Shown here piece after piece: positions 1 through 64,000 of a DNA stretch of 64,000 nucleotides. Numbering within the stretch: the first letter of the stretch is position 1; each line of letters begins with the position of its first letter. The position numbers and the translations under genes were made by a program. The stretch is from Terrabacter aerolatus (GTDB lineage: Bacteria; Actinomycetota; Actinomycetes; Actinomycetales; Dermatophilaceae): the NCBI RefSeq assembly GCF_007991735.1, contig NZ_BJYX01000001.1, positions 1 to 64,000 on the forward strand, written 5' to 3'. The notes under the pieces are model-generated. The model was not told the DNA's origin, did not search any database, and saw only the letters and a program-made list of their open reading frames with translations.

Positions 1-7
1 CCCACCC

Positions 8-49
8 GTCGAGTGGGCACTTCGGCACGCACCGACGTGCCCAGTCGAC
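8..49. repeat. Inverted repeat, family A copy 1
   Basis: GTCGAGTGGGCAC at 8-20 faces GTGCCCAGTCGAC at 37-49, giving a 13-bp stem with one mismatch and a 16-nt loop. It lies just downstream of the broken acetyltransferase gene on the minus strand. The same arms recur at 38451-38514, so it is a dispersed intergenic element and not only a local terminator. Confidence 0.6.
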
Positions 50-61
50 GTTCGGGTCGGG

Positions 62-840
62 TCAGGACGGGGGCCGGGAGACGCCGACGTGGCGGGCGAC
101 CTCCGTGAACCCGGCCCGCTGGTAGAGACCGATCGCCGGGCCGCCGTCCTCGGCGACGATGACGAGTCGGCCCACAGCCGGGTCCTCGAGCGCCCACTCC
201 CCCGCGGCCCGCACGAGCGCGCCGGCCAGGCCCCGTCGCCGGTGGCTCTCGAGCGTCACGACTCCTGGTAGCGGGCGAGGTCACCGAGCCGCACGACGCC
301 GAGGTCGGCCACGAGCCGGTCGCCGTCGAACGCCCCGAACCACCGCGCCCGCCCCGACTCGACGAGCGCGCGCTGGGCGGCCGCCCTCCGACGCTCGAAG
401 ACGAGGCGACCGTCCCGCCGGTCCTCCGGGGTGTCGCTGCCGCCGACCTGCGCCGACTGGTCCCAGTCGTCGTCGCTCACGAGCGCGCGCAGGAGTATGC
501 CGTCCGGTGCGTCCGCGGGGGCCGGCACCGAGGTCGTCGCGAGGTCGACGTCCACCTCGACGTCCCAGCCCCGAGCCGCCCACGCGTCGGTGTCGCCGCC
601 CGGCAGCGCGAAGCCCACCGCGCGGTGGCCGGCGTCGGGGAGCTCCTCCTCGAACCGGGCGACCCAGCGGTCGACCTCCGCGGCTCGGGCCTCGGTCGGC
701 ACGAGCACGAAGTTGCCCCACCAGAAGGTCGGGTTGGTCTCGGTACGCACGACGAGGTGGTCACCGTGGTCGGTGACCGTGGCTCCCTGGAGGCGCAGCA
801 GGTCGAGGTCGGTCGTCAGGCCGGGGCTGTCGATGCGCAC
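62..840 (-). pseudogene. GNAT N-acetyltransferase, split by a frameshift
   Basis: Two minus-strand reading frames together spell one GNAT acetyltransferase of about 260 residues. The first (256-840, GTG start preceded by GGGAGG at good spacing) ends ...GDLARYQES and stops. The second (62-259, GTG) starts TLESHRRRGLAGALVRAAGE, the acetyl-CoA binding loop (motif A, R-R-x-G-L/A-x-A), and continues to the ...GLYQRAGFTEV motif B. Restoring one G near 260-262 would join them as ARYQEVVTLESHRRRG, a standard GNAT strand-4/loop junction. The four-base overlap GTGA could mimic translational coupling, but the split falls inside the catalytic domain. A true single-base deletion (pseudogene) or a sequencing error is therefore likelier. 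The substrate is unknown. Confidence 0.8.
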
Positions 841-857
841 GTCCCGATCCTCCCAAA

Positions 858-902
858 CGTCGAAAGGCCACGGGCTGCCCGGCCGATCGTGGCCTTTCGA
901 CG
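858..902. terminator. Long hairpin between marP and the GNAT gene
   Basis: CGTCGAAAGGCCACG (858-872) is perfectly complementary to CGTGGCCTTTCGACG (888-902): a 15-bp stem with a 15-nt loop. It sits 16 nt downstream of the marP stop and upstream of the GNAT start. There is no U tail, so it may terminate weakly, stabilise the mRNA end, or be another REP-like element. Confidence 0.55.
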
Positions 903-918
903 GTGAAAGGGGGCGGGG

Positions 919-2121: not shown

Positions 2122-2861
2122 GAGCGCCTCCCGGCGAGGTAGCGGTCGGGCAGCGGCCTCATGACGTCGGCGTCCCACGGGCGCGCGAGCCCGGCGAGCT
2201 CGAGCACGCTGCTCACGAGGCCGGCCGTGAAGCCCCACAGGAGCAGGTGGTCGAGGTCGAAGCCGGGCCCGACGTAGCCCGACGGGTGCGTCACCGAGAA
2301 GCGGGTCGACGGGTCGACGAGGTGCGACACCGGCACGGAGAGCACGTCGTGCACCTCGGCGGGGTCACGGACCCCGATCGACGAGGGGCGGGCCCACCAG
2401 CCGAGCACCGGGGCCACGACGAACTGCGCCGGAGCGAGGAAGAGCGAGGGCAGCTGGGCCACCACCTCGACGCCCGAGGGGTCGACGCCCGTCTCCTCCT
2501 CGGCCTCGCGCAGCGCCGTGGCGACGAGGTCGTCGTCCTCCGGGTCGCGGGAGCCGCCGGGGAAGGCGATCTGGGCCGGCTGCGTGCGCATCGTGTGGGA
2601 CCGCTCGATGAGCACCACGTGCTCGCCGTCGTCCTCGGACCCGGCCGGAGGCGGACCGAAGAGGATGAGGACCGCCGACTCGCGGCCTCCCTCCTCGGGC
2701 GGCAGGAACCGCGAGAACCACTCGGGCGCCACGCTCTCGAGCCGCACCGTGAGCTCGTCCATCCACCCCGGGCGCGCGGCCGTCCCCGCCCCGAGCGTCG
2801 GGGAGGGGTCGATGGAACCCGACCTGCCGGCATACGCGATCCGGCTGACGACGTCGGTCAC
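2118..2861 (-). CDS. Nudix hydrolase, CoA-pyrophosphatase-like
   Basis: A soluble protein of about 247 residues, related to Rv3672c and the CoA diphosphatase branch (UPF0035 style) of Nudix enzymes. The Nudix box is visible as [12 protein letters not shown] followed by [12 protein letters not shown], which supplies the metal-binding REAEEE glutamates. The GTG at 2861 overlaps the nth stop (GTGA) and the end overlaps the marP ATG, so this is the middle gene of a coupled three-gene operon. An internal ATG ([11 protein letters not shown]) is an alternative start. The substrate (CoA, or another nucleoside diphosphate) cannot be decided from the sequence. Confidence 0.87.
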
Positions 2862-3583: not shown

Positions 3584-3716
3584 GGACGACACTGTATGCC
3601 GCGGGGCTGTCACCCGCTTTCCGCGTCCCGTGTCGAGGCTGTCCAGGGTGTCGAACGTCTCGGGTGAGGCGAATCCACCTGCTGGGTACGTCCTGCCTGC
3701 ACGAGAGGAGTCCGAC

Positions 3717-6737: not shown

Positions 6738-7535
6738 TCACCCGTGCTCGCGGAGGTACTCCAGCTGCGCCTGTACCGACAGCTCCGCGGCCGGCCACAC
6801 GCTGCGCGGCACGTCGGCGTAGACCTGCTCGACGACGGCGTATGCCGTGTGCGCACCCCGGGCGACCGCGTCGCGCACCTGGTCGAGCCGTTCCGCACGG
6901 TGCCTCAGGTAGAAGGTCACGGTCGCTGCCGCGTCGGCGACGAACGGCCCGTGCCCGGGGCTCAGGCTCGTGACCGTGCCGGCCCGGGTCAGCCCCTCGA
7001 TGCGGGCGAGCGAGGCGAGGTAGGCCTCGAGACTGCCGTCGGGCCAGGCCACCACCGTGGTGCCGCGGCCGAGGATCGTGTCGCCGGTCAGCAGCGTGTT
7101 GTCGGCGGGGAGCACGAACGAGAAGGAGTCGCTCGTGTGACCGGGCGTCTCGACGGCGAGGATCTCGAGCCCGCCGACGGTGATGGCCTCGCCGGCGCGC
7201 AGGTCGTCGTGCCCGCGGCCGAAGGCTCGCACCGGCGCACCGGTCAGCTCGTGGAAGCGGTCGGCGCCCTCGGCGTGGTCGGCGTGACCGTGGGTCAGCA
7301 GGGTCAGCGCGACCCGGCGCCCGGAGTCGGCGACCCGCCGCAGCACGTGCTGCAGGTGAGCCTCGTCGAGCGGGCCCGGGTCGACGACGACGACCTCGTC
7401 GGAGCCGGGCTCGGCGAGCAGCCACGTGTTGGTGCCGTCGAGGGTCATCGGCGACGGGTTGGGGCACAGCACGCACTCGGCGCGCTCGCTCGTCAGGCCG
7501 CCGTGCCAGGCGGGGTCCGCCGCCGAGCCCCTCAC
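6738..7535 (-). CDS. MBL-fold metallohydrolase (Rv3677c-like)
   Basis: A beta-lactamase-fold hydrolase of about 265 residues. The dinuclear metal motif is LLTHGHADHAEG (HxHxDH). Further ligands lie in ETPGHTSDS, LLTGDTILG and SPGHGP. The N-terminal CPNPSPMTLDGTNTWLL is typical of the Rv3677c/LACTB2-like group. The GTG at 7535 is the first usable start after the last in-frame stop and leaves 61 bp to the upstream nudix gene. RNA or thioester substrates have been suggested for relatives; none can be assigned here. Confidence 0.88.
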   Translation of the reverse strand: MRGSAADPAWHGGLTSERAECVLCPNPSPMTLDGTNTWLLAEPGSDEVVVVDPGPLDEAHLQHVLRRVADSGRRVALTLLTHGHADHAEGADRFHELTGAPVRAFGRGHDDLRAGEAITVGGLEILAVETPGHTSDSFSFVLPADNTLLTGDTILGRGTTVVAWPDGSLEAYLASLARIEGLTRAGTVTSLSPGHGPFVADAAATVTFYLRHRAERLDQVRDAVARGAHTAYAVVEQVYADVPRSVWPAAELSVQAQLEYLREHG

Positions 7536-7596: not shown

Positions 7597-8436
7597 TCAC
7601 CGCTCGACGATCTCCATCGCGCCACCGCCGGGGCCGTCGACGACCTCCGGCATGATGAGCGGCAGGGCGTCGCTGTGCACGACCACCGCTGCGGCAGAAG
7701 GGGCGTCGCGGATCTCCTCCACGCACATGACGGTCGGCGGCAGCATGAGGGCCGAGCCCACGGCATACGCCTCCAGCAGCTCCGACGGTACGAACCATTC
7801 GGCGTGGTCGGCCTCGGTGGTCTCGCCGTCGGCGACCTGGAAGGGCGGCATGAGCGCGGCGAAGAACCACGTGTCGTAGCGACGTGGCTCGAAGACCGGG
7901 GTCAGCCAGTGCGCCTTTGCGACGACGAGGTCCGAGCGCAGGACGAGGCCGCGCTCGTGGAGGACGTCGGCGAGGGAGAGTCGTCGGTCGACGAGGGCGA
8001 GGCGGGTCTCGCGCCACTCCGGACCGTCGACCATGGCGAGCGGCCCGCTCGCGGACGGGCTGGCCAGCAGCACCCCGCACTCCTCGAAGACCTCGCGGAT
8101 CGCCGCGGCGACGTACATCTGCGCCTCGGCGGGAGAGCACCCGAGGCGCTCGGCCCACTCCGCCGGCGAGGGACCGGCCCACGGCAGGCCGAGCTCGCCG
8201 TCGCGCTCGTCGACACCGCCGCCGGGGAAGACCATCATGCTCGGCGCGAACTCCATCCCGGAGACGCGCCGCAGCATGAAGACCTCGGGCCCGGTGGCGC
8301 CGTCGCGCACGAGCATCACGGTGCTCGCCCGTCGCGGGGTCGCCTCGTCCCAGCGCTCCCCCGCGAGCCAGCGCGACGCCGCGTCGGAGATGCCCGGCGT
8401 CGTGGTCAGGGGGAAGCGCCGGTTCGTGCCGCTCAC
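7597..8436 (-). CDS. Nudix hydrolase
   Basis: A Nudix protein of about 279 residues. MVFPGGGVDERD opens the box, and AAAIREVFEECGVLL supplies the REVFEE helix after an insertion of about 25 residues. It resembles NUDT19/RNase-J-neighbour Nudix proteins with long loops. The GTG at 8436 lies 19 bp after the ridA stop; I see no strong ribosome site. It belongs to a minus-strand run DUF4177-ridA-nudix-MBL-kinase. The substrate is unknown. Confidence 0.83.
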   Translation of the reverse strand: MSGTNRRFPLTTTPGISDAASRWLAGERWDEATPRRASTVMLVRDGATGPEVFMLRRVSGMEFAPSMMVFPGGGVDERDGELGLPWAGPSPAEWAERLGCSPAEAQMYVAAAIREVFEECGVLLASPSASGPLAMVDGPEWRETRLALVDRRLSLADVLHERGLVLRSDLVVAKAHWLTPVFEPRRYDTWFFAALMPPFQVADGETTEADHAEWFVPSELLEAYAVGSALMLPPTVMCVEEIRDAPSAAAVVVHSDALPLIMPEVVDGPGGGAMEIVER

Positions 8437-9099: not shown

Positions 9100-9943
9100 G
9101 GCCCTCACCCTACTCAGTGCGGGCACGGCTCTGGCGGGGTGCGCCGGTGAGGCCGGTGGCACGATGGCGCCCATGACGAGCAGCGCTTCGGCGACCCCCT
9201 CCGCGAGCACCTCGGCGGCGTCCACCCGTTCCTACGGCAGCGATCCGGCGCAGGTCTACGACGTCCTCCCGCCCGCCGCCGGCGCCCCTGCCGTGACGGG
9301 GACGGTCGTCGTCGTGCACGGCGGCTTCTGGCGCGCGCAGTACGACCGGGAGCACGCCCGGCCCGAGGCGGCGGCGTTCGCCGGAGCGGGTTACCACGTC
9401 GTCCTGGCGGAGTACCGCCGAGTCGGTATGCCGGGTGGCGGCGTCCCCGGGACCCTCGAGGACGTGCGCGACCTCCTCGCGTCGGTCTCCTCGCAGCCGG
9501 ACCTGCCCAAGCCCATCGTCCTCGTCGGCCACTCCGCCGGCGGCCAGCTCGTCGCCTGGGCCGCCGGGCAGCCGTGGGCGCGCGAGCGCGGCATCGTCGG
9601 GGTGGTCTCGCTGGCGGGGGTCGTCGACCTCGGCGCCGCGGACCGCCTGCACCTCGGCTCGGACGCGACGCGCGACTTCGTCGGGTCGGGCCCCGGCACC
9701 GCGGCCTGGACGTCCGCCGACCCGATGTCGACCCTGCCCCCGAAGGTCCCGGTGCGGCTCGTCAACGGCGCCGACGACGACACGGTGCCGCACGAGGTCG
9801 CCGACGCCTACGTGGCGCGGGCCAGGGCCGCCGGCGGCGACGTGACCGAGGACCTCGTCGCGGGCGCCGACCACTTCGCCGTCATCGACCCGACCACCCC
9901 CGCCTTCGCCCACGTCCTCACCGCCGTCCACTCCCTCCTCTGA
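9098..9943 (+). CDS. Alpha/beta hydrolase, probable lipoprotein esterase
   Basis: An esterase-like hydrolase of about 281 residues. The oxyanion motif is VVVHGGFW, the nucleophile elbow is GHSAGG, the acid is in NGADDDTVPHE and the histidine is in AGADHFAVID. It resembles BD-FAE/kynurenine-formamidase-type esterases. The N-terminus MALTLLSAGTALAGCAG ends in a lipobox (LAGC), followed by an S/T/A-rich linker, suggesting a surface lipoprotein. The signal lacks a basic n-region, so a GTG at 9077 (adding VRYSHWV) or an ATG at 9164/9173 (cytosolic form) are alternatives. The start abuts the divergent DUF4177 start. The gene is absent from the mycobacterial block, so it is an insertion here. Confidence 0.8.
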   Translation: MALTLLSAGTALAGCAGEAGGTMAPMTSSASATPSASTSAASTRSYGSDPAQVYDVLPPAAGAPAVTGTVVVVHGGFWRAQYDREHARPEAAAFAGAGYHVVLAEYRRVGMPGGGVPGTLEDVRDLLASVSSQPDLPKPIVLVGHSAGGQLVAWAAGQPWARERGIVGVVSLAGVVDLGAADRLHLGSDATRDFVGSGPGTAAWTSADPMSTLPPKVPVRLVNGADDDTVPHEVADAYVARARAAGGDVTEDLVAGADHFAVIDPTTPAFAHVLTAVHSLL

Positions 9944-11730: not shown

Positions 11731-12902
11731 GTCCGCGCGCCGTCGCGAGCGCGGCGCCCCGGCTCGAGGTCGACGCCCTCATCGACGACCCCCGCACCCA
11801 GATCGTCGTCTGCTGCGGCTCCGGCGGCGTCGGCAAGACGACGACGGCCGCAGCCCTCGCCCTGCGCGCCGCGGAGTCCGGTCGCAACGTCGTCGTCCTC
11901 ACCATCGACCCGGCCCGCCGCCTCGCCCAGTCGCTCGGCCTCACCGAGCTCGACAACACCCCGCGCCCGGTGACCGACATCGACGCGTCGGCCGGCGGCA
12001 GCCTCCACGCGATGATGCTCGACATGAAGCGGACCTTCGACGAGGTCGTCATCGCCCACTCCGAGCCCGACAAGGCCGACCAGATCCTCGCGAACCCCTT
12101 CTACCAGGCCGTCAGCAGCTCCTTCGCCGGCACGCAGGAGTACATGGCGATGGAGAAGCTCGGCCAGCTCAAGGCGAGCGCCGGCACCGCCGACGCCCCG
12201 TGGGACCTCATCATCGTCGACACCCCGCCGTCACGGTCGGCGCTCGACTTCCTCGACGCCCCGAACCGGCTCGGCAGCTTCCTCGACGGCCGTTTCATCC
12301 GGCTCATGACGGCGCCGGCCAAGGCGGGCGGGCGCGCGGGGCTCAAGGTCTTCGGTGTCGGGGTGCAGCTCGTGACGTCGACGATGACGAAGATCCTCGG
12401 GGGCCAGATGCTCACCGACGTCCAGACGTTCGTCAACGCGCTCGACACGATGTTCGGCGGCTTCCGCGAACGCGCCGACGAGACCTACCGGCTGCTCTCC
12501 GAGGACGGCACGGCCTTCCTCGTCGTCGCGGCACCGGAGCGGGACGCGTTGCGCGAGGCGTCGTACTTCGTCGACCGCCTGGAAGCCGACGGTATGCCGT
12601 TGGCCGGGCTCGTCGTCAACCGCATCGGGCGCGTCTCGGCCACCGGGGTCACCCCGGCGCGAGCACTGGCCGCCGCAGAGTCGCTCGAGGACGGGGGCGG
12701 ACCCCGGTCGGCGTCCAACGCCGCCGGCCTGCTCCGGCTCCATGCATCGCTCGTGCGCACGGCCGAGCGACAGCGCGAGCTGGCCGACCGCTTCTCACGG
12801 TCACACCCCGGCATACCCGTGGTGCAGGTGCCGGCGCTCGGACGTGACGTCCACGACCTCGACGGGCTCCGCGAGATCGGGCACGCGCTCGCGGGGTCGT
12901 GA
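11727..12902 (+). CDS. ArsA/GET3-like ATPase, second of pair (Rv3680-like)
   Basis: A 391-residue partner of the preceding ATPase. Walker A is CCGSGGVGKTTTAAALAL. The NTPase aspartates are visible in LTIDPARRLAQSLGL and IIVDTPPSRSALDFLDAP. The central region KAGGRAGLKVFGVGVQLVTS resembles the hydrophobic client-binding helices of this family. The ATG overlaps the upstream TGA, so stoichiometric co-translation is expected. It converges on whiB4 with a 90-bp gap in which I see no clear terminator. Confidence 0.92.
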   Translation: MSPRAVASAAPRLEVDALIDDPRTQIVVCCGSGGVGKTTTAAALALRAAESGRNVVVLTIDPARRLAQSLGLTELDNTPRPVTDIDASAGGSLHAMMLDMKRTFDEVVIAHSEPDKADQILANPFYQAVSSSFAGTQEYMAMEKLGQLKASAGTADAPWDLIIVDTPPSRSALDFLDAPNRLGSFLDGRFIRLMTAPAKAGGRAGLKVFGVGVQLVTSTMTKILGGQMLTDVQTFVNALDTMFGGFRERADETYRLLSEDGTAFLVVAAPERDALREASYFVDRLEADGMPLAGLVVNRIGRVSATGVTPARALAAAESLEDGGGPRSASNAAGLLRLHASLVRTAERQRELADRFSRSHPGIPVVQVPALGRDVHDLDGLREIGHALAGS

Positions 12903-16141: not shown

Positions 16142-16597
16142 TCAGCCGGCGAGGACGCGGCGCACGATGGCGGCGACGCGGCCACCCTCCGCCCGTCCCG
16201 CGACGGCAGCGTTGGCCGCCTTCATCGCGAGGCCCATCTGCGGCATACCGCTGGCTCCGGAGGCCGTGACGGCCTCACGGACGATCGCCTCGAGCTCGTC
16301 GTCGCCGAGCTGCCGGGGCAGGTAGGCCTCGAGGACGGCGAGCTCCGCCTCCTCCTTGCCCGCGAGCTCCGGACGACCGGCGCCGGTGTAGGCCTCGGCC
16401 GCCTCGCGGCGCTTCTTGGCCTCCTTGGTCAGGACCTTGAGCACGTCGTCGTCGGTGAGCTCACGGTGCTCCTTGCCGGCGACCTCCTCGTTGGTGACGG
16501 CCGTCAGCGCCATCCGCAGCGAGCCGGCGCGGACCTGGTCGCGCTCGCGCATGGCGGTCGTGAGGTCGGACTGCAGCTGCTGCTTCAGGGTGCTCAT
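16142..16597 (-). CDS. GatB/YqeY domain protein
   Basis: A 151-residue YqeY-family protein (related to the tail domain of GatB), with the hallmarks VLTKEAKKRREAAEAY, EEAELAVLEAYLPRQL and the glycine-rich helix-turn end. The family is thought to contact tRNA; its role is not established. CAGACT (16609-16604, minus strand) lies 6 nt upstream of the ATG, so it may be leaderless. Confidence 0.9.
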   Translation of the reverse strand: MSTLKQQLQSDLTTAMRERDQVRAGSLRMALTAVTNEEVAGKEHRELTDDDVLKVLTKEAKKRREAAEAYTGAGRPELAGKEEAELAVLEAYLPRQLGDDELEAIVREAVTASGASGMPQMGLAMKAANAAVAGRAEGGRVAAIVRRVLAG

Positions 16598-44742: not shown

Positions 44743-44769
44743 GACGGCCAGTGTATGCCGCAGCCGACG

Positions 44770-47409: not shown

Positions 47410-48423
47410 ATGTCGCTCGCCGCACTGCACCGCCGCAACCTCCTCAAGGAGATCGACCTGACGCCCGACGAGTTCCGGGCGCTTCTAGACCTCGCCGCCG
47501 AGCTCAAGGCCGCCAAGCGCGAGGGCCGCGAGGAGCGACGTCTGACGGGCAGGAACATCGCCCTGATCTTCGAGAAGACCTCGACCCGCACCCGCTGCGC
47601 GTTCGAGGTGGCCGCGGCTGACCAGGGCGCGAGCACGACCTACCTCGACCCGAGCGGGTCGCAGCTGGGCCACAAGGAGTCGGCCAAGGACACCGCTCGC
47701 GTGCTCGGCCGCTTCTACGACGGCATCGAGTACCGCGGGTCCGGGCACGACGTCGTCGAGACGCTCGGCGCCTTCGCCGGCGTCCCCGTCTGGAACGGCC
47801 TCACCGACGACTGGCACCCGACGCAGTCCCTCTGCGACGCGCTGACGATGCGCGAGCACGCGGGCAAGCCCGACGACCAGATCGCCTTCGCCTACGTCGG
47901 CGACGCCCGCTTCAACATGGGCAACTCGCTGCTCGTCACGGGTGCGCTGCTCGGCATGGACGTGCGCATCGTGGCCCCGCAGTCGCTGTGGCCGTCCGAC
48001 GACGTCGTCGCCGTCGCCCGACGGTATGCCGCCGAGACCGGGGCACGCGTCACGCTGACCGAGGACGTGGCCGAGGGAGTGCGCGGTGTCGACTTCGTCC
48101 ACACCGACGTGTGGGTGTCGATGGGCGAGCCCAAGGAGGTCTGGGCCGATCGGATCGAGCTGCTCACGCCCTACCAGGTCAACGCGGACCTCCTGGCCCT
48201 CACGGGCAATCCGCGGGTCAAGTTCATGCACTGCCTGCCCGCCTTCCACGACCTCGAGACCCAGGTCGGCAAGGACGTGCACGAGCAGTTCGGCCTCAAG
48301 GAGCTCGAGGTCACCGACGACGTCTTCGAGTCCGAGGCGTCCGTCGTCTTCGACCAGGCCGAGAACCGCATGCACACGATCAAGGCCCTCATGGTGGCCA
48401 CCCTGGTGCGTCTCGACACCTGA
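47410..48423 (+). CDS. argF: Ornithine carbamoyltransferase (catabolic-like)
   Basis: A 337-residue OTCase interconverting carbamoyl phosphate plus ornithine and citrulline. STRTR (58-62) in the phosphate loop reads [43 protein letters not shown] and HCLPAF are the other signatures. The [11 protein letters not shown] form and the length resemble the long ArcB-like class rather than the shorter biosynthetic class. No arcA, arcC or arginine-biosynthesis gene is nearby, so its direction in vivo is unclear. Confidence 0.93.
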
Positions 48424-48477: not shown

Positions 48478-49515
48478 ATGCACCTCTCTCGCACCCCTGC
48501 CCTCGCGGCCGTCGCCGCCGCGCTCGTCGTCCTCCCCGCCGCAGCGGCCGCCTCCGCCTCGGCCACCGACGCCCCCGGTCAGTCCAAGGACGGCCACTAC
48601 CAGTTCGCCGTCATCGGCGACGTGCCCTACGGCGACGCCCAGGTCGCGGCCTTCCCGAGGTGGATCGACCAGATCAACGCAACGCCGAACCTGTCGTTCA
48701 CGATCCACGTGGGCGACATCAAGAACGGCTCGTCCAGGTGCACCAACGAGTACTTCTCGATGATCCGCACCCAGTTCGACCGGTTCACGATGCCGCTCGT
48801 CTACACGCCGGGCGACAACGAGTGGACCGACTGCCACCGCACCAACAACGGCACGTACAACCCGCTCGAGCGCCTCTCGGCCATCCGGTCGACGTTCTTC
48901 ACCCGTCCGGGCCACACCCTCGGCGCCGACATGACCGTCGCGTCGCAGCAGTCCGCCGGCTTCCCGGAGAACGTCTCCTTCCGCCGGCAGGGCATCGACA
49001 TCGCGACGCTCCACGTCGTCGGCAGCAACGACGGGCTGCTCCCCTGGCCCGAGCTCGGGCACAGCACGCCGACCGCCGAGCAGGTGGCCGAGGAGCGGGC
49101 ACGCATGGACAACGCCGTGGCACAGGTGCGCTCGGCCTTCGCCGACGCACGTCAGCGTCACGACCGGGCCGTCGCGCTCTTCCTCCAGGCCGACATGTTC
49201 GACCCGACGTATGCCGTGACGTGGGCCGACGACTCGTCCTTCCAGCCGCTCGTGCGCGAGCTCGTGGCCCAGTCCCAGGCGTTCGACGGCGAGGTCTACC
49301 TCTTCAACGGTGACAGCCACGTCTACAACTCCGACAAGCCGCTCGCGGCGGGGTCGAGGTGGCTCGACTTCTACGGCGTGCAGGGGTCGGCCGACAACCT
49401 GACGCGCGTCACCGTCGACGGCTCGAGCAACAACAAGGACTTCCTCGAGGTCACCGTGAACCGGCCGGGTGCCGAGCACGTGCTCTCGTGGGAGCGCATC
49501 CCCTACACCTCCTGA
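48478..49515 (+). CDS. Secreted metallophosphoesterase
   Basis: A 345-residue exported protein. The signal peptide is HLSRTPALAAVAAALVVLPA, with cleavage probably near residue 28. Calcineurin-like motifs are VIGDVPYGD, HVGDIKNG, YTPGDNEWTDC (GD/GDNE) and VYLFNGDSHVYN (GH-equivalent GDSH). Two cysteines may form a disulfide. It acts outside the cell on an unknown phosphoester. Confidence 0.82.
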   Translation: MHLSRTPALAAVAAALVVLPAAAAASASATDAPGQSKDGHYQFAVIGDVPYGDAQVAAFPRWIDQINATPNLSFTIHVGDIKNGSSRCTNEYFSMIRTQFDRFTMPLVYTPGDNEWTDCHRTNNGTYNPLERLSAIRSTFFTRPGHTLGADMTVASQQSAGFPENVSFRRQGIDIATLHVVGSNDGLLPWPELGHSTPTAEQVAEERARMDNAVAQVRSAFADARQRHDRAVALFLQADMFDPTYAVTWADDSSFQPLVRELVAQSQAFDGEVYLFNGDSHVYNSDKPLAAGSRWLDFYGVQGSADNLTRVTVDGSSNNKDFLEVTVNRPGAEHVLSWERIPYTS

Positions 49516-50215: not shown

Positions 50216-51819
50216 GACACTCCTTCGTGGACCCGGACCGGCAGTCGGACCTCGAACCGCGCACCACCGGGTGAGCTCGCCCCGATCGTGCCACCGGCGC
50301 GTGTCACGAGCCGGTGGACGAGGGCGAGGCCCACGCCTCGCCGCATCGCGCCGCGGGGCTCCTTGGTCGAGTAGCCGTCGAGGAAGACGTCGTCGAGGCG
50401 GTCGTCCGGGATGCCGGGACCGCTGTCGGTGACCGTCAGCTCGAGGGCATCGGCAGTGCGCTCGACCCGCACGACCACCTCACCCCGGGGGTGCCGCCCG
50501 GCCGAGTCCGGGTCGTCGGCGACGGCGTCGACGGCGTTGTCGATGAGGTTGCCCAGCACCGTGACGACGGGCAGGTCGTCGTCGCTCCCGGCGGCCAACC
50601 GGCTCGCGGGGTCGAGCCGGACGACGACGTCGCGCTCGGCGGCCACCGTCATCTTGGCGAGCAGGAGCGCGGCGATGACGGGCGACCCGACGTGCGCGCG
50701 GATCTCCTCGCTGGCCAGCGCCGTCTCGGCCTGCAGCTCCCGGCTGTAGCGGGTCGCCTCGTCGACCTCCCCGAGCTCGAGCAGGACCGACAGCACGTGC
50801 AGCCGGTTGGAGAACTCGTGCTCCTGGGCCCGCAGCGCGGTCGACAGGCTCTCCATCGAGTCGAGCTGGCGCACGAGCGCCTCGAGCTCGGTGCGGTCGC
50901 GGATCGTGACGACCCAGCCGGCGTTGCGGCCTGCCACGAGCACCGGCATCCGGTTCAGCACGAGCAGGTGCTCGTCCGTCACGGCGACGAGGTCGGTGCC
51001 CTCGAGCTCGCCCGTGACGATGCGTCGCAGGCGCCCGGCCGGGAGGACGTCCTCGACGCGCCCGCCCAGGCCCGTCGTCGCAATCCCGAGCAGTCGCCTC
51101 GCCTCGTCGTTGAGCACGTTGATGGCGCCCTTGGCGTCGACCGCCAGCACCCCCTCGCGTATGCCGTGCAGCATCGCCTCGCGCTCCTGCATGAGGGCGA
51201 CGATCTCGGCCGGCTCGACGCCGAAGGTCACCCGCTTGATGGCCCGCGCGAGCAGCAGCGAGGCGGCGACGCCGAGGGCGAGGGCGATGCCGGCGTAGAG
51301 CGCGATGTCGAGCACCTCGGCGTTGAGCCGGACCCCGACCTCGGACTCGAGGATGCCGACCGACACCTCGCCGACGCTGCGGCCCGATGCGTCGACGATC
51401 GGGGCCCGCGCGTTCGCGGACCGTCCGAGGCTGCCCTCGTCGATGCCGGTGTGCACGAGGCCGTCGAGGGCCACGACGGGCTCCTCGATGCGCTGCCCGA
51501 TGAGAGCGGGATTGGGGTGCGAGTAGCGCACCCCCGTGCGGTCGATGATGACGACGTAGGAGGCGCCGGTCGCGGTGCGCACCTGCGACCCCAGGGCCGG
51601 CAGGACGTGGGACGGGTCGCCCCGGACGATCTCCTCGGCGACCTGGGGCACGCGTCCGAGAGTCACCGCGATCCCGCTGGCCTGCTCGATGGCGCGCGTG
51701 TCGGCAGTCTGCGACGTCAGCCGGGCGAAGAGGGCGAAGCCCACGGCGAGGGTCACCACGACGATCCCGAGCACGGCGAGGAGGATCCGCGCGGCGAGCG
51801 TCCTGCCCAGTGACGGCAT
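50212..51819 (-). CDS. CitA/DcuS-type sensor histidine kinase
   Basis: A 535-residue membrane kinase. Helix 1 (about 8-30), an extracytoplasmic PDC/CACHE-like sensor (about 31-178, with VVIIDRTGVRYSHPNPALIG), helix 2 (about 180-200) and a PAS domain (about 215-325) come first. The dimerisation region RAQEHEFSNRLHVLSVLLEL and an HATPase domain with NLIDNAVDA and DSGPGIP follow. The YSHPNP motif is typical of citrate/C4-dicarboxylate sensors. The ATG at 51819 follows GGAGGGG. Confidence 0.93.
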   Translation of the reverse strand: MPSLGRTLAARILLAVLGIVVVTLAVGFALFARLTSQTADTRAIEQASGIAVTLGRVPQVAEEIVRGDPSHVLPALGSQVRTATGASYVVIIDRTGVRYSHPNPALIGQRIEEPVVALDGLVHTGIDEGSLGRSANARAPIVDASGRSVGEVSVGILESEVGVRLNAEVLDIALYAGIALALGVAASLLLARAIKRVTFGVEPAEIVALMQEREAMLHGIREGVLAVDAKGAINVLNDEARRLLGIATTGLGGRVEDVLPAGRLRRIVTGELEGTDLVAVTDEHLLVLNRMPVLVAGRNAGWVVTIRDRTELEALVRQLDSMESLSTALRAQEHEFSNRLHVLSVLLELGEVDEATRYSRELQAETALASEEIRAHVGSPVIAALLLAKMTVAAERDVVVRLDPASRLAAGSDDDLPVVTVLGNLIDNAVDAVADDPDSAGRHPRGEVVVRVERTADALELTVTDSGPGIPDDRLDDVFLDGYSTKEPRGAMRRGVGLALVHRLVTRAGGTIGASSPGGARFEVRLPVRVHEGVS

Positions 51820-52029
51820 ACGGCCCCTCCGCTCTCCATGGTCAGCACCCGCCCGACGGCGGGTGGCGGCCCGGTGACGCCGTCGTCGGCGTCGCTCCCA
51901 GCATGGCTGAGCAGATTGCACAAAACCACCGGTAACGCGGCTATCGGAACCAACGATCACAAGCATTCCGGCGCGGCCCGCCCCGCTCCTACGGTGACGC
52001 CACTCAACGAGGAGAAAGGGCGGGGCCAC
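51820..52029. promoter_or_regulatory. Divergent regulatory region, two-component system / ABC importer
   Basis: The 210-bp spacer includes an A/T-richer stretch (about 51905-51970) unlike its surroundings, plausible as the response-regulator binding region. TACGGT (51990-51995) is a candidate -10 for the ABC operon. AAAGGG lies about 9 nt before its ATG. I cannot define a single binding motif. Confidence 0.4.
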
Positions 52030-55923: not shown

Positions 55924-57519
55924 GTGACCGAGACTGCAGGCTCAGGAGCCCCTCAGACGGGCGGCACGGGTGATACCAGCCAGATCGACGAGATCCGGGC
56001 CGGGTACGCGTTCGACGGCGGAGTGCTCAAGCTGGGCGCGGCGGTCGTCGACGGGCAGGCCCATGCGGACGCCCCGGTCCAGATCCCCCTCAGCGTGCTC
56101 AACCGGCACGGCCTCGTCGCCGGCGCTACCGGCACCGGCAAGACCAAGACGCTCCAGCTCATGGCCGAGCAGCTCTCGGCGCAGGGCGTCCCCGTCTTCC
56201 TCGCCGACATGAAGGGCGACCTCTCCGGACTCGCGACACCGGGCGAGGGCGGCGACAAGATCACCAGCCGCGCGGCCGACGTCGGCATGGAGTGGACGGC
56301 CACGGCATACCCCACCGAGTTCTTCGCGCTCGGCGGCAAGGGCTCCGGCATCTCGATCCGCGCCACGATCACGAGCTTCGGCCCGACCCTGCTCAGCAAG
56401 GTCCTCGGCCTCAACGACACGCAGGAGAGCAGCCTCGGGCTGATCTTCCACTACGCCGACAAGAACGGCCTGGCCCTGCTCGACCTCAAGGACCTGCGTG
56501 CCGTCATCACGCACCTGACCTCCGACGAGGGCAAGGCCGACCTCAAGGACCTCGGCGGACTCTCGAGCGCCACCGCGGGCGTCATCCTGCGCAACCTCAT
56601 CACCTTCGAGGACCAGGGCGCCGGCGACTTCTTCGGCGAGCCCGAGTTCGAGACGAGCGACCTGCTGCGCACCGCCGCCGACGGCCGGGGCATCATCTCC
56701 TGCCTCGAGCTGCCGCAGGTGCAGGACCGGCCCCAGCTCTTCTCGACCTTCCTCATGTGGATGCTCGCCGACCTCTTCCACGACCTGCCCGAGGAGGGCG
56801 ACCTCGACAAGCCGAAGCTCGTCTTCTTCTTCGACGAGGCGCACCTGCTCTTCGACGACGCGAGCAAGGCGTTCCTGCAGGCCATCGAGCAGACCGTGCG
56901 GCTCATCCGCTCCAAGGGCATCGGTGTCTTCTTCGTGACCCAGTCGCCCAAGGACGTCCCGTCCGGCGTGCTCGCCCAGCTCGGCAACCGCGTGCAGCAC
57001 GCGCTGCGCGCCTTCACCCCCGACGACGCCAAGGCACTCAAGCAGGCCATCGCGACCTATCCGCACACGGCCTACGACATGGAGAAGCTCCTGACGAGCC
57101 TCGGCATCGGCGAGGCCGTCGTCACCGTGCTGTCCGACAAGGGCGTCCCGACGCCCGTCGCGTGGACGCGGATGAAGGCCCCGAACTCGCTCATGGACCC
57201 CTCGCCGCAGGCGACGATGGATGCCGTCATCAGCGCCTCGCAGCTCAAGACGAAGTATGCCGACGTCGTCGACCGCGAGTCCGCCTACGAGAAGCTCCAG
57301 GCCCGGCTCCAGGCGGCTCCCGCGGCGCCCGAGGCTGCCGCACCCGCCCCGGCCGCCCCGTCGGCGCCGGCTCCCACGAGCACGCGGGCGCCCAAGCCCG
57401 AACCGAGCCTCATCGAGCAGGTCGCCGGCAGCTCGGCCTTCAAGTCGATGGTCCGGTCGGCCGGCACCGTCATCGGCCGCGAGATCACCCGCAGCCTCTT
57501 CGGCACCCGCCGCCGCTGA
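55924..57519 (+). CDS. HerA-like helicase/ATPase (DUF853)
   Basis: A 531-residue FtsK/HerA-type P-loop ATPase. Walker A is VAGATGTGKTKTLQLMAEQL, Walker B KLVFFFDEAHLLFDDA, sensor VFFVTQSPKDVPSGVLAQLG and arginine-finger region RVQHALRAFTPDD. An A/P-rich linker (about 458-490) precedes a short C-terminal domain (SSAFKSMVRSAGTVIGREIT). The family is widespread, but its DNA substrate is not established. No HerA nuclease partner (NurA/Sir2) is adjacent, so I do not call it a defence system. Confidence 0.9.
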   Translation: MTETAGSGAPQTGGTGDTSQIDEIRAGYAFDGGVLKLGAAVVDGQAHADAPVQIPLSVLNRHGLVAGATGTGKTKTLQLMAEQLSAQGVPVFLADMKGDLSGLATPGEGGDKITSRAADVGMEWTATAYPTEFFALGGKGSGISIRATITSFGPTLLSKVLGLNDTQESSLGLIFHYADKNGLALLDLKDLRAVITHLTSDEGKADLKDLGGLSSATAGVILRNLITFEDQGAGDFFGEPEFETSDLLRTAADGRGIISCLELPQVQDRPQLFSTFLMWMLADLFHDLPEEGDLDKPKLVFFFDEAHLLFDDASKAFLQAIEQTVRLIRSKGIGVFFVTQSPKDVPSGVLAQLGNRVQHALRAFTPDDAKALKQAIATYPHTAYDMEKLLTSLGIGEAVVTVLSDKGVPTPVAWTRMKAPNSLMDPSPQATMDAVISASQLKTKYADVVDRESAYEKLQARLQAAPAAPEAAAPAPAAPSAPAPTSTRAPKPEPSLIEQVAGSSAFKSMVRSAGTVIGREITRSLFGTRRR

Positions 57520-59219: not shown

Positions 59220-59723
59220 TTACCGGAGCCTGCGGCCCTCGAAGAAATCGACCAGAAGGGCCGCCGACTCCTCGGCGAGCACGCCCCCGACGACGTCCAC
59301 CACGTGCGTCGCGAGCGGGTCCCGGGTCAGGTCCCACACCGACCCGCACGCACCCGCCTTGGGGTCCCACGCACCGAACACGACGCGCTCCACCCGGGCC
59401 GCCATCGCCGCCCCGGCGCACATGACGCACGGCTCCAGCGTCACGACGAGCGTGCAGCCGTCGAGCCGCCACGAGCCCCCCACCCCGGCCGCCTCGCGCA
59501 GCGCCACCACCTCGGCGTGCCCCGTCGGGTCGCCCAGCTCCTCCCGGACGTTGTGGCCGCGGCCGACCACCCCACCGTCGGGGGCCACCACGAGCGCCCC
59601 GACCGGCACGTCCTGGGCGCCCGCCGTGGCGGCGGCGAGCTCGAGCGCCTGCCCCATCCACGCGGCATACGTCTCCGGCGGGGGGACTGAGGCCTTGCCA
59701 GGGGTCTCGGATCGCTTCGCCAC
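59220..59723 (-). CDS. tadA: tRNA adenosine(34) deaminase
   Basis: A cytidine-deaminase-fold enzyme making inosine at the wobble position of tRNA-Arg(ACG). The zinc motifs are [12 protein letters not shown] (HAE) and [11 protein letters not shown] (PCxxC). The GTG at 59723 gives 167 residues but has no convincing ribosome site. An ATG at 59657 ([20 protein letters not shown]) fits the usual family start and may be the real one. It is divergent from upp and is the neighbour of tRNA-Ser as in many actinobacteria. Confidence 0.9.
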
Positions 59724-60379: not shown

Positions 60380-60406
60380 ACACCACCGACGGCGTATGCC
60401 GTGTGG

Positions 60407-61396
60407 TCACGGCAACACGTCGCCCCACTCGGCGTCGCGCGCGTTCCGGTAGCGCTCCCCCGCCTTCCTGGAGATGACCTCGCGGCCGGCGGTGCCGTCG
60501 GGGCGGCAGACCTGGAACTCCACGAAGCCCTTGCGCTTCAACGGATGCCGGAGGATGCGCCCTGGAAGTGCCTCTGCGACAAGAGGTTCGGCGACGCCGG
60601 GCGCCGCGGCCGCGACCCACGAGAACTTCTCGTCCTCGTAGGAGAGCTCGGCGCCCTTGAGCCGGCGGTGCTCGGCGCTTCGATTCACCCGTGCCGCGAA
60701 GTGGCACCAGTCGCCCTGCGCCAGTGGGCACTCCGCCGCGTGCGGGCACGGCCCGAGCAGGGTCCACCCGGCGTCGATGAGCCTCGTTCGCACCCGGAGC
60801 ACCCGGGCGTAGCCGTCGGGTGTGCCCGGCTCGACCACAGCCACCGCCCCACCCCGGCGCATGGCGTCGGCGACGAGCGCATCCTGTTGCTGCGGGTCGA
60901 GCTCGCTCAGCACGTACGACACCGTCACGAGGTCGGCCTCGAGGTCCGGCCACGCGCCGGCCCGGGCCTGCCGGAACGTCGCGCCGGACAAGGCCGGTGA
61001 CGTCGCGTCGGCGACGAGGTCCCGCCCGAGTGCGAGGGCGTCCTCGACCTGGTCGAGGACCGTGACCGCCTCCAGGGACTCGAAGACGCCGGCCGCCGCC
61101 CAGGCCGCCGCCCCGGTGCCGCCGCCGAGGTCGAGCAACGAGCGGGGTGCGAGACCGCGGTCGGCGACGGCTCCGAGGGCTTTTGCCAGGGCGGCGTGGG
61201 TGGCCGGCATCCGGTATGCGGCGTAGGCGGCGACGTGCACGCGTGAGGCGAGGATCGGGGCGGTCGCCGGGGCCACCGAGCGGTACCGCGAGACGAGTGC
61301 CTCGGTCGCCCGAGCCAGCTCTCGTTCGTCCATCCCGCCCACCGCGCGCCTCAGAGCGGCATGCAGCTCGACGGCATACTCTGGCGTTCGCGACAC
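60407..61396 (-). CDS. Rsm22-family SAM methyltransferase
   Basis: A 329-residue ribosome-associated methyltransferase-like protein. SLLDLGGGTGAAAWAAAGVF is the SAM motif, and VSYVLSELDPQQQDALV follows. A cysteine cluster CPHAAECPLAQGDWCHFAAR is likely a metal site, and RLKGAELSYEDEKFSWVA is family-typical. The GTG at 61396 is chosen over the far upstream frame because TATCCT (61408-61403, minus strand) lies 6 nt upstream. The rRNA target is inferred from mitochondrial Rsm22. Confidence 0.9.
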   Translation of the reverse strand: MSRTPEYAVELHAALRRAVGGMDERELARATEALVSRYRSVAPATAPILASRVHVAAYAAYRMPATHAALAKALGAVADRGLAPRSLLDLGGGTGAAAWAAAGVFESLEAVTVLDQVEDALALGRDLVADATSPALSGATFRQARAGAWPDLEADLVTVSYVLSELDPQQQDALVADAMRRGGAVAVVEPGTPDGYARVLRVRTRLIDAGWTLLGPCPHAAECPLAQGDWCHFAARVNRSAEHRRLKGAELSYEDEKFSWVAAAAPGVAEPLVAEALPGRILRHPLKRKGFVEFQVCRPDGTAGREVISRKAGERYRNARDAEWGDVLP

Positions 61397-61549
61397 GCGA
61401 GGAGGATAGCGGCGCGAGGCCGGACCACCGCCCGACACGCGGGCGGGCGTGCGGGACCCCACCCGCCCCGTACGGCACACTGGTCACACCTCTGTGCCGG
61501 GAGGCTGTCAGGGCAGCCCCGCCACCTTCCCTCCAAGGAGCGACACACC

Positions 61550-61720
61550 ATGGGCGCCAAGGCCAAGAAGATCATCCTGATCATCGTGCTCGCGTTCTTC
61601 GTCTATGCCGTCTTCACCTCGCCCGTCAAGGCTGCTGACATCGTCAACAACATCTGGGGCGTGCTCGTCGACGGCTTCAGCGCGATCCTGCGGTTCTTCA
61701 GCTCCCTGCTCAACCGCTGA
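61550..61720 (+). CDS. Small single-pass membrane protein
   Basis: 56 residues: GAKAKKIILIIVLAFFVYAV gives a basic start and one transmembrane helix (about 8-24). An amphipathic segment (VNNIWGVLVDGFSAILRFF) follows. CAAGGAG precedes the ATG. It lies 18 bp before the PH-domain gene, so they are probably co-expressed. The function is unknown. Confidence 0.8.
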   Translation: MGAKAKKIILIIVLAFFVYAVFTSPVKAADIVNNIWGVLVDGFSAILRFFSSLLNR

Positions 61721-61738
61721 TGAGCGCACACTGAGTCC

Positions 61739-62536
61739 ATGGCGTTCCTACGGAGCACCGAGGTCCCGGCGGGACTGACGCCGATCCTGCTCCCGGGCGA
61801 GCGGCTCGTCACCGCGGTGCGCGCGCACTGGGCCAAGCTCGCCGAGCCCGTCGCGACGACGACCATCGGTTTCATCGTGGCCGTGTGGGTCGACTCGAAC
61901 GTCACGAAGTCCACCCAGGCGATGGGCACGATCTTCTGGTGGGTCTTCTTCGCGCTGCTCGCGCGGATGCTCTGGTGCCTGCTCGACTGGAGCCACAACT
62001 GGTTCGTCGCGACCGACAAGCGGCTCCTGCTGCGCTACGGGCTCATCTCCCACAAGGTCGCCATGATGCCGCTGCTCAAGGTCACCGACATGAGCTACGT
62101 GCGGTCGATCCCCGGCCAGTTCCTCGGTTTCGGCAAGTTCGTCCTCGAGAGCGCCGGCCAGGACCAGGCCCTGCGCGAGATCAAGTGGGTGCCCAACCCC
62201 GACGAGACCTACCGAGACATCTGCGCCGAGATCTTCCACATCGTCCCGCCGCCGGGCGACGAGGACTTCGAGGAGATCGACGAGCTGCCCGGCGACCCCG
62301 GCATGCCCGGAGGCCCCACCCGCGGTGGAGGCCCGGCCGGGTCCGGCGGCGACGCGGCGTTCCCCGACGTGCACCGCACCCACAACCCCATTCAGGACCG
62401 GCTCGACTCCTACTCGCGGGCGGTCCCGATCCAGCGACCCGCCGAGCAGCCCGAGACCGTCTACGAGAGCGAGGACCTCAAGCGCCGTCGCCGTGGCGCC
62501 GACACGGGCCCGATCTGGCCGCGGGCCCGGGACTGA
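61739..62536 (+). CDS. Bacterial PH-domain membrane protein
   Basis: A 265-residue protein. Two helices (about 40-52 and 62-82) precede a bPH_2 domain (WFVATDKRLLLRYGLISHKV, MMPLLKVTDMSYVRSIPGQFLGFGKF). A long acidic, G/P-rich C-terminus ends RRRRGADTGPIWPRARD. Such proteins bind membranes, but their role is unknown. It pairs with the 56-residue membrane protein upstream. Confidence 0.87.
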   Translation: MAFLRSTEVPAGLTPILLPGERLVTAVRAHWAKLAEPVATTTIGFIVAVWVDSNVTKSTQAMGTIFWWVFFALLARMLWCLLDWSHNWFVATDKRLLLRYGLISHKVAMMPLLKVTDMSYVRSIPGQFLGFGKFVLESAGQDQALREIKWVPNPDETYRDICAEIFHIVPPPGDEDFEEIDELPGDPGMPGGPTRGGGPAGSGGDAAFPDVHRTHNPIQDRLDSYSRAVPIQRPAEQPETVYESEDLKRRRRGADTGPIWPRARD

Positions 62537-62709
62537 GCGCGCTGACGCGACCCTCGGTGACCGGGATCCGGCCCGGGCGGGTACCAACCGGTAGCCGTGG
62601 TCCCATCCGCGGCGCGCGGCCGACGACGCCCGGGCAGGACTCGCAGGCGGTCGCGCTCCCCGCTAGTTTGTGGTGATCCGCCCGTCACCCGACATGCTCG
62701 GAGGTCAGC

Positions 62710-64000
62710 ATGAGTGTGTTCCGCACCAAGTCGATCGAGGCGTCGATGGCATCGGCAGACGATGCCGACCACCAGCTGAAGAAGACCCTCAGCGCCCTCG
62801 ACCTCACCGTCTTCGGCATCGGCGTCATCATCGGCGCCGGTATCTTCACCCTGACCGGCAAGGCCGCCAAGGAGTACGCCGGCCCGTCGATCGCGCTCTC
62901 GTTCGTCGTCGGCGCCATCGTCTGCGGTCTCGCCGCGCTGTGCTACGCCGAGTTCGCCTCGACGGTGCCCATCTCCGGTTCCGCCTACACGTTCTCCTAC
63001 GCGACGCTCGGTGAGCTCGTCGCCTGGATCATCGGCTGGGACCTGCTGCTCGAGCTCATGCTCGGCGCGAGCGTGGTCGCCCAGGGATGGTCGCAGTACT
63101 TCGTGACCCTGCTGGGACAAGTGGGGGTGAAGTGGCCCGACTCGGTCGGGCCGGGGTCGCACTTCGACCTGCCGGCCTTCCTGCTCATCGCGCTGCTGAC
63201 CCTGCTCATCGCCAAGGGCATCAAGGAGTCGATGCGCGTCAACCTCGTGCTCGTCGGCGTCAAGCTCTTCATCGTGCTCTTCGTCATCTTCGCGGGCATC
63301 TCGTACATCAACACCGCCAACTGGTCGCCGTTCATCCCGCCGAGCCAGCCCGGCCAGGCAGCCGAGGGGCTCACGACCCCGCTGATCCAGCTCATCAGCG
63401 GCATGACGCCCGCGACCTTCGGCGTCATGGGGATCATGGCCGGCGCCGCGATCGTCTTCTTCGCCTACATCGGCTTCGACGTCGTGGCGACCACCGCGGA
63501 GGAGGCCCGCAACCCGCAGCGCGACCTGCCCCGCGGCATCCTCGGCTCCCTCGCCATCTGCACCGTCCTCTACGTCGCCGTCACGCTCGTCATCACGGGC
63601 ATGCAGAACTACAAGGACATCGACCCGAAGGCCGCTCTCGCCACGGCGTTCACCCACGTCGGCAGGGACGGTTTCGCGACGCTCATCTCGGCCGGCGCGG
63701 TCGCCGGACTGACCACGGTCGTCATGACCCTCATCATCGGTGCCACCCGCGTCACCTTCGCGATGAGCCGCGACCACCTCATCCCGGCCAGCCTGGGACG
63801 CACCAACCCCAGGACGGGCACCCCGGTGAAGCTGACGCTCATCATCGGCACCGTCGTCGCGCTCATCGCCTCGCTGACGCCGATCGGCAAGCTCGAGGAG
63901 ATGGTCAACATCGGCACGCTGACGGCCTTCATGCTCGTCTCGCTCGCCGTGCCGATCCTGCGCAAGCGCCGCCCCGACCTCAAGCGGTCCTTCACGGTCC
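62710..64000 (+). CDS. APC-family amino-acid permease (truncated by window end)
   Basis: At least 430 residues, running off the window. LSALDLTVFGIGVIIGAGIF is the APC start; GPSIALSFVVGAIVCGLAAL, FFAYIGFDVVATTAEEARNP and LIIGATRVTFAMSRDHLIP are typical of the cationic amino-acid transporter (CAT/YfnA) branch. About ten helices are visible. GGAGG precedes the ATG at good spacing. Substrate likely a cationic amino acid; not proven. Confidence 0.92.
   Translation, partial: MSVFRTKSIEASMASADDADHQLKKTLSALDLTVFGIGVIIGAGIFTLTGKAAKEYAGPSIALSFVVGAIVCGLAALCYAEFASTVPISGSAYTFSYATLGELVAWIIGWDLLLELMLGASVVAQGWSQYFVTLLGQVGVKWPDSVGPGSHFDLPAFLLIALLTLLIAKGIKESMRVNLVLVGVKLFIVLFVIFAGISYINTANWSPFIPPSQPGQAAEGLTTPLIQLISGMTPATFGVMGIMAGAAIVFFAYIGFDVVATTAEEARNPQRDLPRGILGSLAICTVLYVAVTLVITGMQNYKDIDPKAALATAFTHVGRDGFATLISAGAVAGLTTVVMTLIIGATRVTFAMSRDHLIPASLGRTNPRTGTPVKLTLIIGTVVALIASLTPIGKLEEMVNIGTLTAFMLVSLAVPILRKRRPDLKRSFTV

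Follow-up and report, generated by a model that had tools for sequence, protein, structure and literature searches.

The octamer GTATGCCG was greatly over-represented in the 64,000-nt stretch of Terrabacter aerolatus DNA examined here (the window) and in the genome to which it belongs (coded G000; other genomes are given codes of the same form), and we consider it probable that it is a DNA uptake sequence (DUS) for natural transformation by way of Tad, ComEA and ComEC. The enrichment was limited to one actinobacterial family, within which the word had dialects, and the word was conserved between congeners, placed preferentially at the 3′-ends of genes and in inverted pairs, and spaced according to its orientation; the genes of an uptake machine were also present. 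Copies in the same orientation avoided each other within approximately 1–1.5 kb, which is a new observation to which the genome G012 is an exception. In combination these features fit a DUS better than the other known classes of word.

Abundance of the octamer

A preliminary description of the window had counted by eye about 37 copies of the heptamer GTATGCC/GGCATAC and about 35 of the octamer. Both counts were exact, as a recount gave 37 (20+17) for the heptamer and 35 (19+16) for GTATGCCG and its reverse complement CGGCATAC, and the example positions that it quoted were correct to approximately 2 bases. The word is non-palindromic, differing from its reverse complement. For the window, Markov models of order 1 to order 3 predicted 0.8–1.6 copies; the predictions rose to 11, 26 and 35 at orders 4, 5 and 6, but only because the sub-words of GTATGCCG are themselves produced by GTATGCCG. 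Maximum-order Markov scoring was dropped since, with sub-words enriched by the word, it masks the word itself.

The over-representation was borne out across the genome (4,420,518 bases in 62 contigs), which contained 2163 copies (489/Mb) compared to 195 (90+105) of the reversed word used as a control. The two orientations were about equally common, as had been proposed, with 1072 and 1091 copies. No consistent strand lean was found in 364 kb of G000 (97 plus, 109 minus) or in 460 kb of G034 (240 and 266); 40-kb bins likewise showed none, the widest differences being 7 vs 12 and 9 vs 14. Among the family genomes with >100 copies in a survey of 149, the strand deviation was never above 2.3 root-n units.

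A 464-kb sample of G000, consisting of the window and a further 400 kb, was used for scoring of all 8-mers. GTATGCCG was one of the two that scored highest, the other being TATGCCGT, which overlaps it. The sample contained 265 copies, against 12.7 expected from a third-order model without masking or 1.6 with the word masked. The 24 one-letter neighbours of GTATGCCG, pooled and summed by hand, amounted to 316 against 215 expected, the clearest excesses (observed/expected) being those of GGATGCCG (96/44), GCATGCCG (56/37), GTAGGCCG (44/29) and CTATGCCG (12/1.7). There is thus a mild halo of variants around the word, far below the word itself, and part of this halo may consist of its decay products. 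The flanks were also biased, with T as the next 3′ base in 52% of copies and C immediately 5′ in 58%.

Placement, codon context and conservation

Genes in the 464 kb were called with a simple purpose-written caller, not a standard tool. The word occurred in genes and spacers alike, as previously described: 194 of the 265 copies lay within genes and 71 outside them or at their edges. This corresponds to 0.47 words/kb in genes and 1.51 words/kb outside genes or at edges, a 3.2-fold difference (Fisher, 2e-14). In gaps of 8–600 bp the density was highest between convergent genes (3.27 words/kb, 19 words), intermediate between codirectional genes (1.71, 32 words) and lowest between divergent genes (0.72, 9 words), and therefore the excess sits at the 3′-ends of genes. 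In the codirectional spacers of G000, single words favoured the antisense orientation when counted by eye. Within genes words favoured the sense orientation (137 vs 57).

Inverted pairs of words 10–60 bp apart were in excess (observed/expected) in G000 (11/3.8), in G034 (36/13.9) and in the congeners (17/2.2), with 10/6.9 in a pool of other genera. Only one of ten listed inverted pairs of G000 was inside a gene. One pair, in the window, was folded: the words at 22928..22935 (plus strand) and 22967..22974 (minus strand) would form the left and right arms of a hairpin between two convergent genes, and the segment 22916–22990 had a predicted folding energy of −45.3 kcal/mol (z −5.0). The pair at 22928..22974 is a candidate bidirectional terminator.

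The preliminary description had stated that the word forces rare codons and that codon use alone could not explain it, and both statements agreed with the codon counts. The commonest coding frame was xxG TAT GCC Gxx (120 of 194 coding copies), and these account for 120 of the 177 TAT codons in total. TAT-GCC outnumbered TAC-GCC in the context G|TAy GCn|G (120 vs 18), whereas overall TAC (2203) far outnumbered TAT (177). Enrichment of a single dipeptide codon pair did not account for the word, as the Tyr-Ala dipeptide was just 1.19 times as frequent as expected and the excess extended outside genes.

Conservation at synonymous sites, which had been proposed as a check, was analysed in 176 orthologous gene pairs formed with seven congeners, the comparisons across congeners being non-independent. 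GTATGCCG had remained intact in 53 of the 69 coding comparisons between orthologues, compared to 21311 of 46735 (46%) for control octamers of equal GC content (Fisher, 2e-7), and TAT was kept in 40 of 53 cases in the word and 3 of 15 outside it. Four words of the window illustrate this. Those at 30219..30226 (minus strand, in the gene at 29857–30963), 34307..34314 (minus strand, in an 899-amino acid gene at 32730–35429) and 41275..41282 (plus strand, in the gene at 40856–42118) were intact in 7/7 aligned congeners, and that at 36125..36132 (plus strand, in the gene at 35628–36917) in 6/7.

Distribution and dialects

Counts in relatives, also suggested at the outset, placed the word within one family. 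A genome was classed as rich if it had at least 120 copies/Mb and at least 2.2 times the reversed control, these thresholds being chosen by us. By this definition 82 of the 149 family genomes were rich in GTATGCCG, 12 were intermediate and 55 were poor, and the highest density was 1356/Mb. Among the 53 genera, 30 had a rich member, four had only intermediate members (or intermediate and poor ones) and 19 had only poor members; the last group includes genus g27, which uses GGATGCCG. Genera g26 and g51 contained both rich and poor species. Outside the family, none of 290 genomes (of 296 sampled from the class) was rich and none exceeded approximately 51/Mb in a listing read by eye. G054, from the same order, had 62/Mb, with a reversed control higher still.

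The family with the word is taken to be the Intrasporangiaceae, or its GTDB equivalent, because among the matches listed for RecR (80 named loci) the closest was that of Intrasporangium calvum (93%), with Knoellia sinensis also near. The 20.6-kb stretches around these two RecR loci contained seven words in I. calvum and 22 in K. sinensis; the other 78 listed loci contained 22 words in 1.30 Mb.

Dialects occurred in sister genera, GGATGCCG and GTATGCG each being one letter away from the word. G034 lacked GTATGCCG. Its top 8-mer was GGATGCCG, with 68 copies in 60 kb against 6.5 expected and 3949 (1977+1972) genome-wide. GGATGCCG was similarly abundant in G024 (1966+1850 = 3816), and 27 other genomes searched had 111–674 copies per strand. 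G028 had the dialect GTATGCG (23 in 40 kb against 3.3 expected; 48 in 80 kb), and G012 carried GTATGCCG, GTATGACG and GTATGGCG together. No related word was the top word in 40–60 kb each of G009, G010, G014, G016, G017, G018, G021, G022 and G027. The dialect search covered the genomes named here out of the 149 surveyed. GGATGCCG was considered as a decaying dialect in G009 and rejected, as same-orientation pairs at 60–1000 bp (15 against 10.2 expected) showed no repulsion. A tree of TadA and an adjacent helicase was too gappy to distinguish one origin of the GGATGCCG dialect from two, or to count losses of the word.

GTACGCC(G), one letter different from the word, was in excess in G031 and G032 (37 against 8.4 in G032), as was AGGCGAT in G016 (24 against 4.2). 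Codon bias could account for these excesses, or they may be separate words or dialects in decay.

Orientation-specific spacing

In the 364-kb stretch of G000, of the 193 intervals of at least 100 bp between adjacent words, 133 separated words of opposite orientation (p 1.6e-7). The same alternation was found in G034 for its own dialect (278/445, p 1.6e-7), with 45/75 (p 0.11) in G015. The distances between words showed where this alternation comes from. Same-orientation pairs 60–500 bp apart were depleted (observed/expected) in G000 (5/32.3), G034 (57/122.2), the congeners (0/17.7) and a pool of other genera (28/57.0), whereas opposite pairs at the same distances were close to expectation (27/33.0, 112/122.1, 19/19.4 and 60/60.4, respectively). 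Between 500 bp and 1000 bp the corresponding values were 17/36.5, 95/138.7, 19/19.9 and 48/63.8 for the same orientation and 35/37.3, 136/138.6, 17/21.8 and 86/67.6 for opposite orientations. The congener stretches are mostly orthologous to one another and to the window, and hence their values are non-independent. The G028 dialect behaved in the same way at 60–1000 bp, with five same-orientation pairs against 12.9 expected and 18 opposite pairs against 13.4.

Over 60–1500 bp in G000 the ratio of observed to expected pairs was 0.37 for the same orientation and 0.91 for opposite orientations; 150 control octamers of similar abundance averaged 1.02 for the same-orientation ratio, the lowest value among them being 0.76. 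One-letter variants showed no clear repulsion from the word, with ratios of 0.83–1.55 for six variants in G000 (at least 20 copies) and 0.78–1.21 for fifteen in G034. Repulsion was seen for GCCGTATG (0.36), which overlaps GTATGCCG when CCG follows. The range of the repulsion was shorter at higher density, approximately 1.5 kb in G000 and 1 kb in G034.

Since words in the same orientation repel and those in opposite orientations mostly do not, GTATGCCG appears to be read with a direction, and this seems to hold equally on both strands. The preliminary description had concluded from the equal strand counts that the word is non-polar, a conclusion with which this spacing disagrees. These patterns are most simply read as near-exact recognition of a word with unidirectional action, for which another copy on the same strand brings a diminishing return.

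Genes for DNA uptake

Matches to ComEC (PF03772), ComEA-type HHH_3 (PF12836) and DprA (PF02481) were present in all 29 family genomes analysed (18 word-bearing, 11 wordless), and a TadE match in 28 of them. G000 has at least two Tad loci. The first, ssd-tadA-tadB-tadC-flp-tadE-tadF, was sought in 28 stretches; tadA was found in all of them and the remainder of the locus was nearly complete, except in G012 (no ssd, tadA cut), G016 (no flp seen) and G032 (where the stretch reaches the contig end). No first Tad locus was found in G014. Loss of tadC was considered for wordless G010 and rejected, as a tblastn match was present. A second class of tadA, assigned by hand from match scores, was present in 18/18 word-bearing and 8/11 wordless genomes, counting partial forms in G015 (two halves 11 kb apart, on contig C43), G025 (one half) and G001 and G029 (partial matches). 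The three genomes without this second Tad ATPase (G014, G021 and G022) were all wordless. ComEC, HHH_3, DprA, TadE and the first tad locus were each considered as the determinant of word presence across the 29 genomes, and none discriminated.

In G012 (contig C17, L123:9976–12087) the first-locus tadA was cut at Walker A, beside a gene with Pfam matches to a large serine recombinase; the remaining half seems to lie on contig C2, and apparent conjugation genes, identified by judgement, lie beyond the recombinase. This arrangement suggests that tadA serves as the integration site of a mobile element in G012. The second-locus tadA of G025 (contig C14, L119:9993–16700) stops at the same Walker A position and is followed by approximately 6 kb of lower GC content (60–64% compared to 70–71%), in which open reading frames presumably resemble a CD-NTase and a SLATT protein.

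An FtsK/SpoIIIE-family ATPase gene (L111:5079–9443) is divergently placed beside the second tadA (9808–11028). The Pfam matches of its product included an FHA domain and two FtsK_SpoIIIE segments and no FtsK gamma domain, and we judge the protein to be closer in appearance to the ATPases of type VII secretion. Homologues were also found in wordless G009, G010 and G018 (shorter and without FHA in the last), so that this ATPase is only a lead as a reader of the word.

Comparison with known words and proposed function

The preliminary description had offered three ideas for the octamer, namely a DNA-uptake-like word, a methylation target and a nucleoid or repair protein site. The first fits best, with support from the over-representation, the placement and the strand equality, and the methylation and nucleoid-site ideas seem to fit worse. 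Several traits of a DUS were found: a genome-wide excess equal on both strands, an excess outside genes with inverted pairs at the ends of transcription, sharing within a family with dialects and wordless genera, and hosts that have uptake genes. The genomes of Haemophilus influenzae and the gonococcus are approximately 2 Mb in length. The densities found here (489/Mb in G000 and up to 1356/Mb in the family) are of the same order as those of their uptake sequences, numbering 1471 and 1965 per genome according to passages of PMC1939737.

In the Neisseriaceae the DUS, whose receptor is ComP, occurs equally on both strands. GTATGCCG resembles it in having about a thousand or more copies, an intergenic excess, inverted hairpin pairs and dialects within a family, the dialects and inverted DUS pairs of Neisseriaceae being described in parts of PMC3630211. 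It differs in being a GC-rich core of eight letters, in belonging to a Gram-positive family and in the repulsion of same-orientation copies. It is like the uptake signal sequence of the Pasteurellaceae in genome density, even spacing and excess outside genes, but has a different sequence, phylum and orientation-specific spacing. Micrococcus luteus, which belongs to another family, transforms by a Tad/Flp system with the same components as found here: two tad loci, comEA, comEC and an FtsK/SpoIIIE ATPase beside a tad locus. Passages of PMC4322843 describe M. luteus as naturally transformable and its two tad islands as needed for transformation, and according to passages of PMC8467076 a single nucleotide polymorphism in Mlut_07490, the ATPase gene beside tad-1, affected transformability. 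The term 'uptake sequence' is absent from the main texts of both papers. GTATGCCG is therefore DUS-like in its genomic features, except that it does not track the uptake genes, and differs in polar spacing and phylum. By analogy this suggests that a Gram-positive family may also use a DNA password for its own DNA.

Four points are inferences: uptake as the process, the Tad pilus as its machine, the existence of a specific reader, and directional reading as the cause of the spacing. The word would mark self DNA for natural transformation in this family, and the competence machine (Tad/Flp pilus, ComEA, ComEC and DprA) would preferentially bind or process fragments from relatives that carry it. 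Recombination of imported fragments into the chromosome would spread and maintain the word, sustained by molecular drive and by tolerance at synonymous sites and 3′-ends of genes. The polarity would result if the machine began at the word and travelled along the DNA in a single direction: a second word in the same orientation within approximately 1–1.5 kb would add little, and a word on the opposite strand would serve the opposite direction. In a bolder form, to which we would give slightly less than even chances, the family identifies its own DNA in transformation through a directionally read octamer that has genus dialects, each strand bearing an evenly spaced lattice of words, with the reader perhaps in the Tad machinery and perhaps even the FtsK/SpoIIIE-type ATPase beside the tad locus. 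Were that ATPase the reader, pilus uptake would be joined with a polar word-reading motor.

Several observations weigh against a role in uptake or against its generality. The spacing was less clean in the congeners, where same-orientation pairs at 500–1000 bp were not depleted and opposite pairs at 1000–1500 bp were low (6/21.5). In word-rich G012 the core word showed no repulsion at 60–1000 bp (23 pairs against 24.4 expected), and repulsion was weak with variants pooled (71 against 92.4), which counts against generality. All 11 wordless genomes have ComEC, HHH_3 and DprA matches and 10 of 11 have a recognisable first Tad locus, and therefore gene content does not explain the presence or absence of the word; the correlation with the second locus (3/11 wordless genomes lacking it vs 0/18 word-bearing) was weak (one-sided Fisher approximately 0.045, by hand) and was noticed post hoc. 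In three word-bearing genomes (G012, G015 and G025) tadA is apparently interrupted. No specific reader turned up, with no search made for a ComP homologue. Polarity is not predicted by the H. influenzae model, because the uptake words of that species act independently of orientation (passages of PMC1939737). Searches of the open-access literature, which took in part of the long match lists, yielded no account of transformation in this family and neither GTATGCCG nor any actinobacterial uptake word.

The main rival, which we regard as unlikely, is a Chi-like polar signal for recombination or repair, at which an end-processing helicase-nuclease (AdnAB, AddAB or another) approaching from one side would switch mode; random double-strand breaks would then make both orientations necessary every few kb. 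The orientation-specific spacing on both strands suits such a polar reader, and as a short, polar, over-represented octamer the word resembles Escherichia coli Chi in length and density. Unlike E. coli Chi, however, it had no strand skew in either G000 or G034, and was enriched at 3′-ends, outside genes and in convergent gaps; it was also scarce in all sampled genomes of 19 of the 53 genera (with GGATGCCG instead in g27), which would be odd for a repair signal. Chi read by RecBCD was ruled out by the absence of RecC (PF04257), which was missing in 18 of 29 family genomes, including G000 and 13 of the 18 word-bearing ones. The distribution of RecC was patchy, with matches in 5/18 word-bearing and 6/11 wordless genomes.

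Less likely still is that the word binds a protein of the nucleoid, of segregation or of replication, or that a translocase reads it in a polar manner, as with the FtsK-orienting polar sequences (KOPS) or the SpoIIIE recognition sequences (SRS). KOPS and SRS are skewed along the replichore, whereas the 40-kb bins here had no consistent lean. The regular polar spacing would agree with such a word, as would the position of the ATPase at L111:5079–9443, which resembles that of Mlut_07490 (passages of PMC8467076); against this, the ATPase is type VII-like, without a gamma domain match, and has homologues in wordless genomes.

We attach very little probability to the idea that the word is targeted by a methyltransferase, a restriction system or a defence system. 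Targets of restriction are usually avoided rather than enriched, and methylation does not predict repulsion limited to same-orientation copies. A precedent is HIP1, an octamer highly iterated in the cyanobacterial clade, where exceptional genomes have variants of it, and which tracks orphan methyltransferases according to passages of PMC4390886; HIP1 is palindromic and methyltransferase-linked, unlike GTATGCCG, which is not a palindrome.

A functionless by-product of mutation or codon bias would agree with the predominance of one coding frame and the somewhat raised one-letter neighbours, but is scarcely credible, being already contradicted by the higher density outside genes, the synonymous-site conservation despite a strong preference for TAC, the repulsion ratio of 0.37 against a control minimum of 0.76, and the 265 copies of the word itself against 1.6 expected.

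To our knowledge, only two families, both Gram-negative, have established words by which their own DNA is recognised for uptake. If GTATGCCG is an uptake word it would add a third family, independent of these, Gram-positive and equipped with Tad pili, indicating that such words evolve repeatedly. It would also provide a new dialect-bearing system in which to find a reader, and would predict natural competence in approximately thirty genera, in none of which we found it described. Orientation-specific spacing provides a computational test for the words that are read and for the direction of reading; it is applicable to Haemophilus, Neisseria and other genomes and bears on whether uptake words originate by drive or selection.

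Positions of the word in the window

Apart from the hairpin pair and the four conserved copies described above, seven words lay between called genes, at 29090..29097, 31778..31785, 44753..44760 and 60394..60401 on the plus strand and at 20691..20698, 38546..38553 and 61372..61379 on the minus strand, and one was at a gene edge (51814..51821, minus strand). The word at 44753..44760 starts 8 bases beyond the 5′-end of a gene for the bacterial small signal recognition particle RNA (44649–44745). The remaining words, located by sequence count, were at 495..502, 3594..3601, 6840..6847, 9426..9433, 12592..12599, 17335..17342, 19304..19311, 40643..40650, 48024..48031, 49209..49216, 51159..51166 and 57255..57262 on the plus strand, and at 2828..2835, 7761..7768, 12809..12816, 16241..16248, 18266..18273, 26949..26956, 46674..46681, 56303..56310 and 59663..59670 on the minus strand. 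Three tRNA genes were found at 17739–17812, 46223–46307 and 59123–59209.

The largest word-free gaps in the 364 kb of G000 were both on contig C1. Judged from the starts of the proteins, the gap between 128156 and 138647 (10.5 kb) encodes apparent flagellar genes, and that between 92013 and 101305 (9.3 kb) encodes mixed, possibly toxin-antitoxin-like genes.

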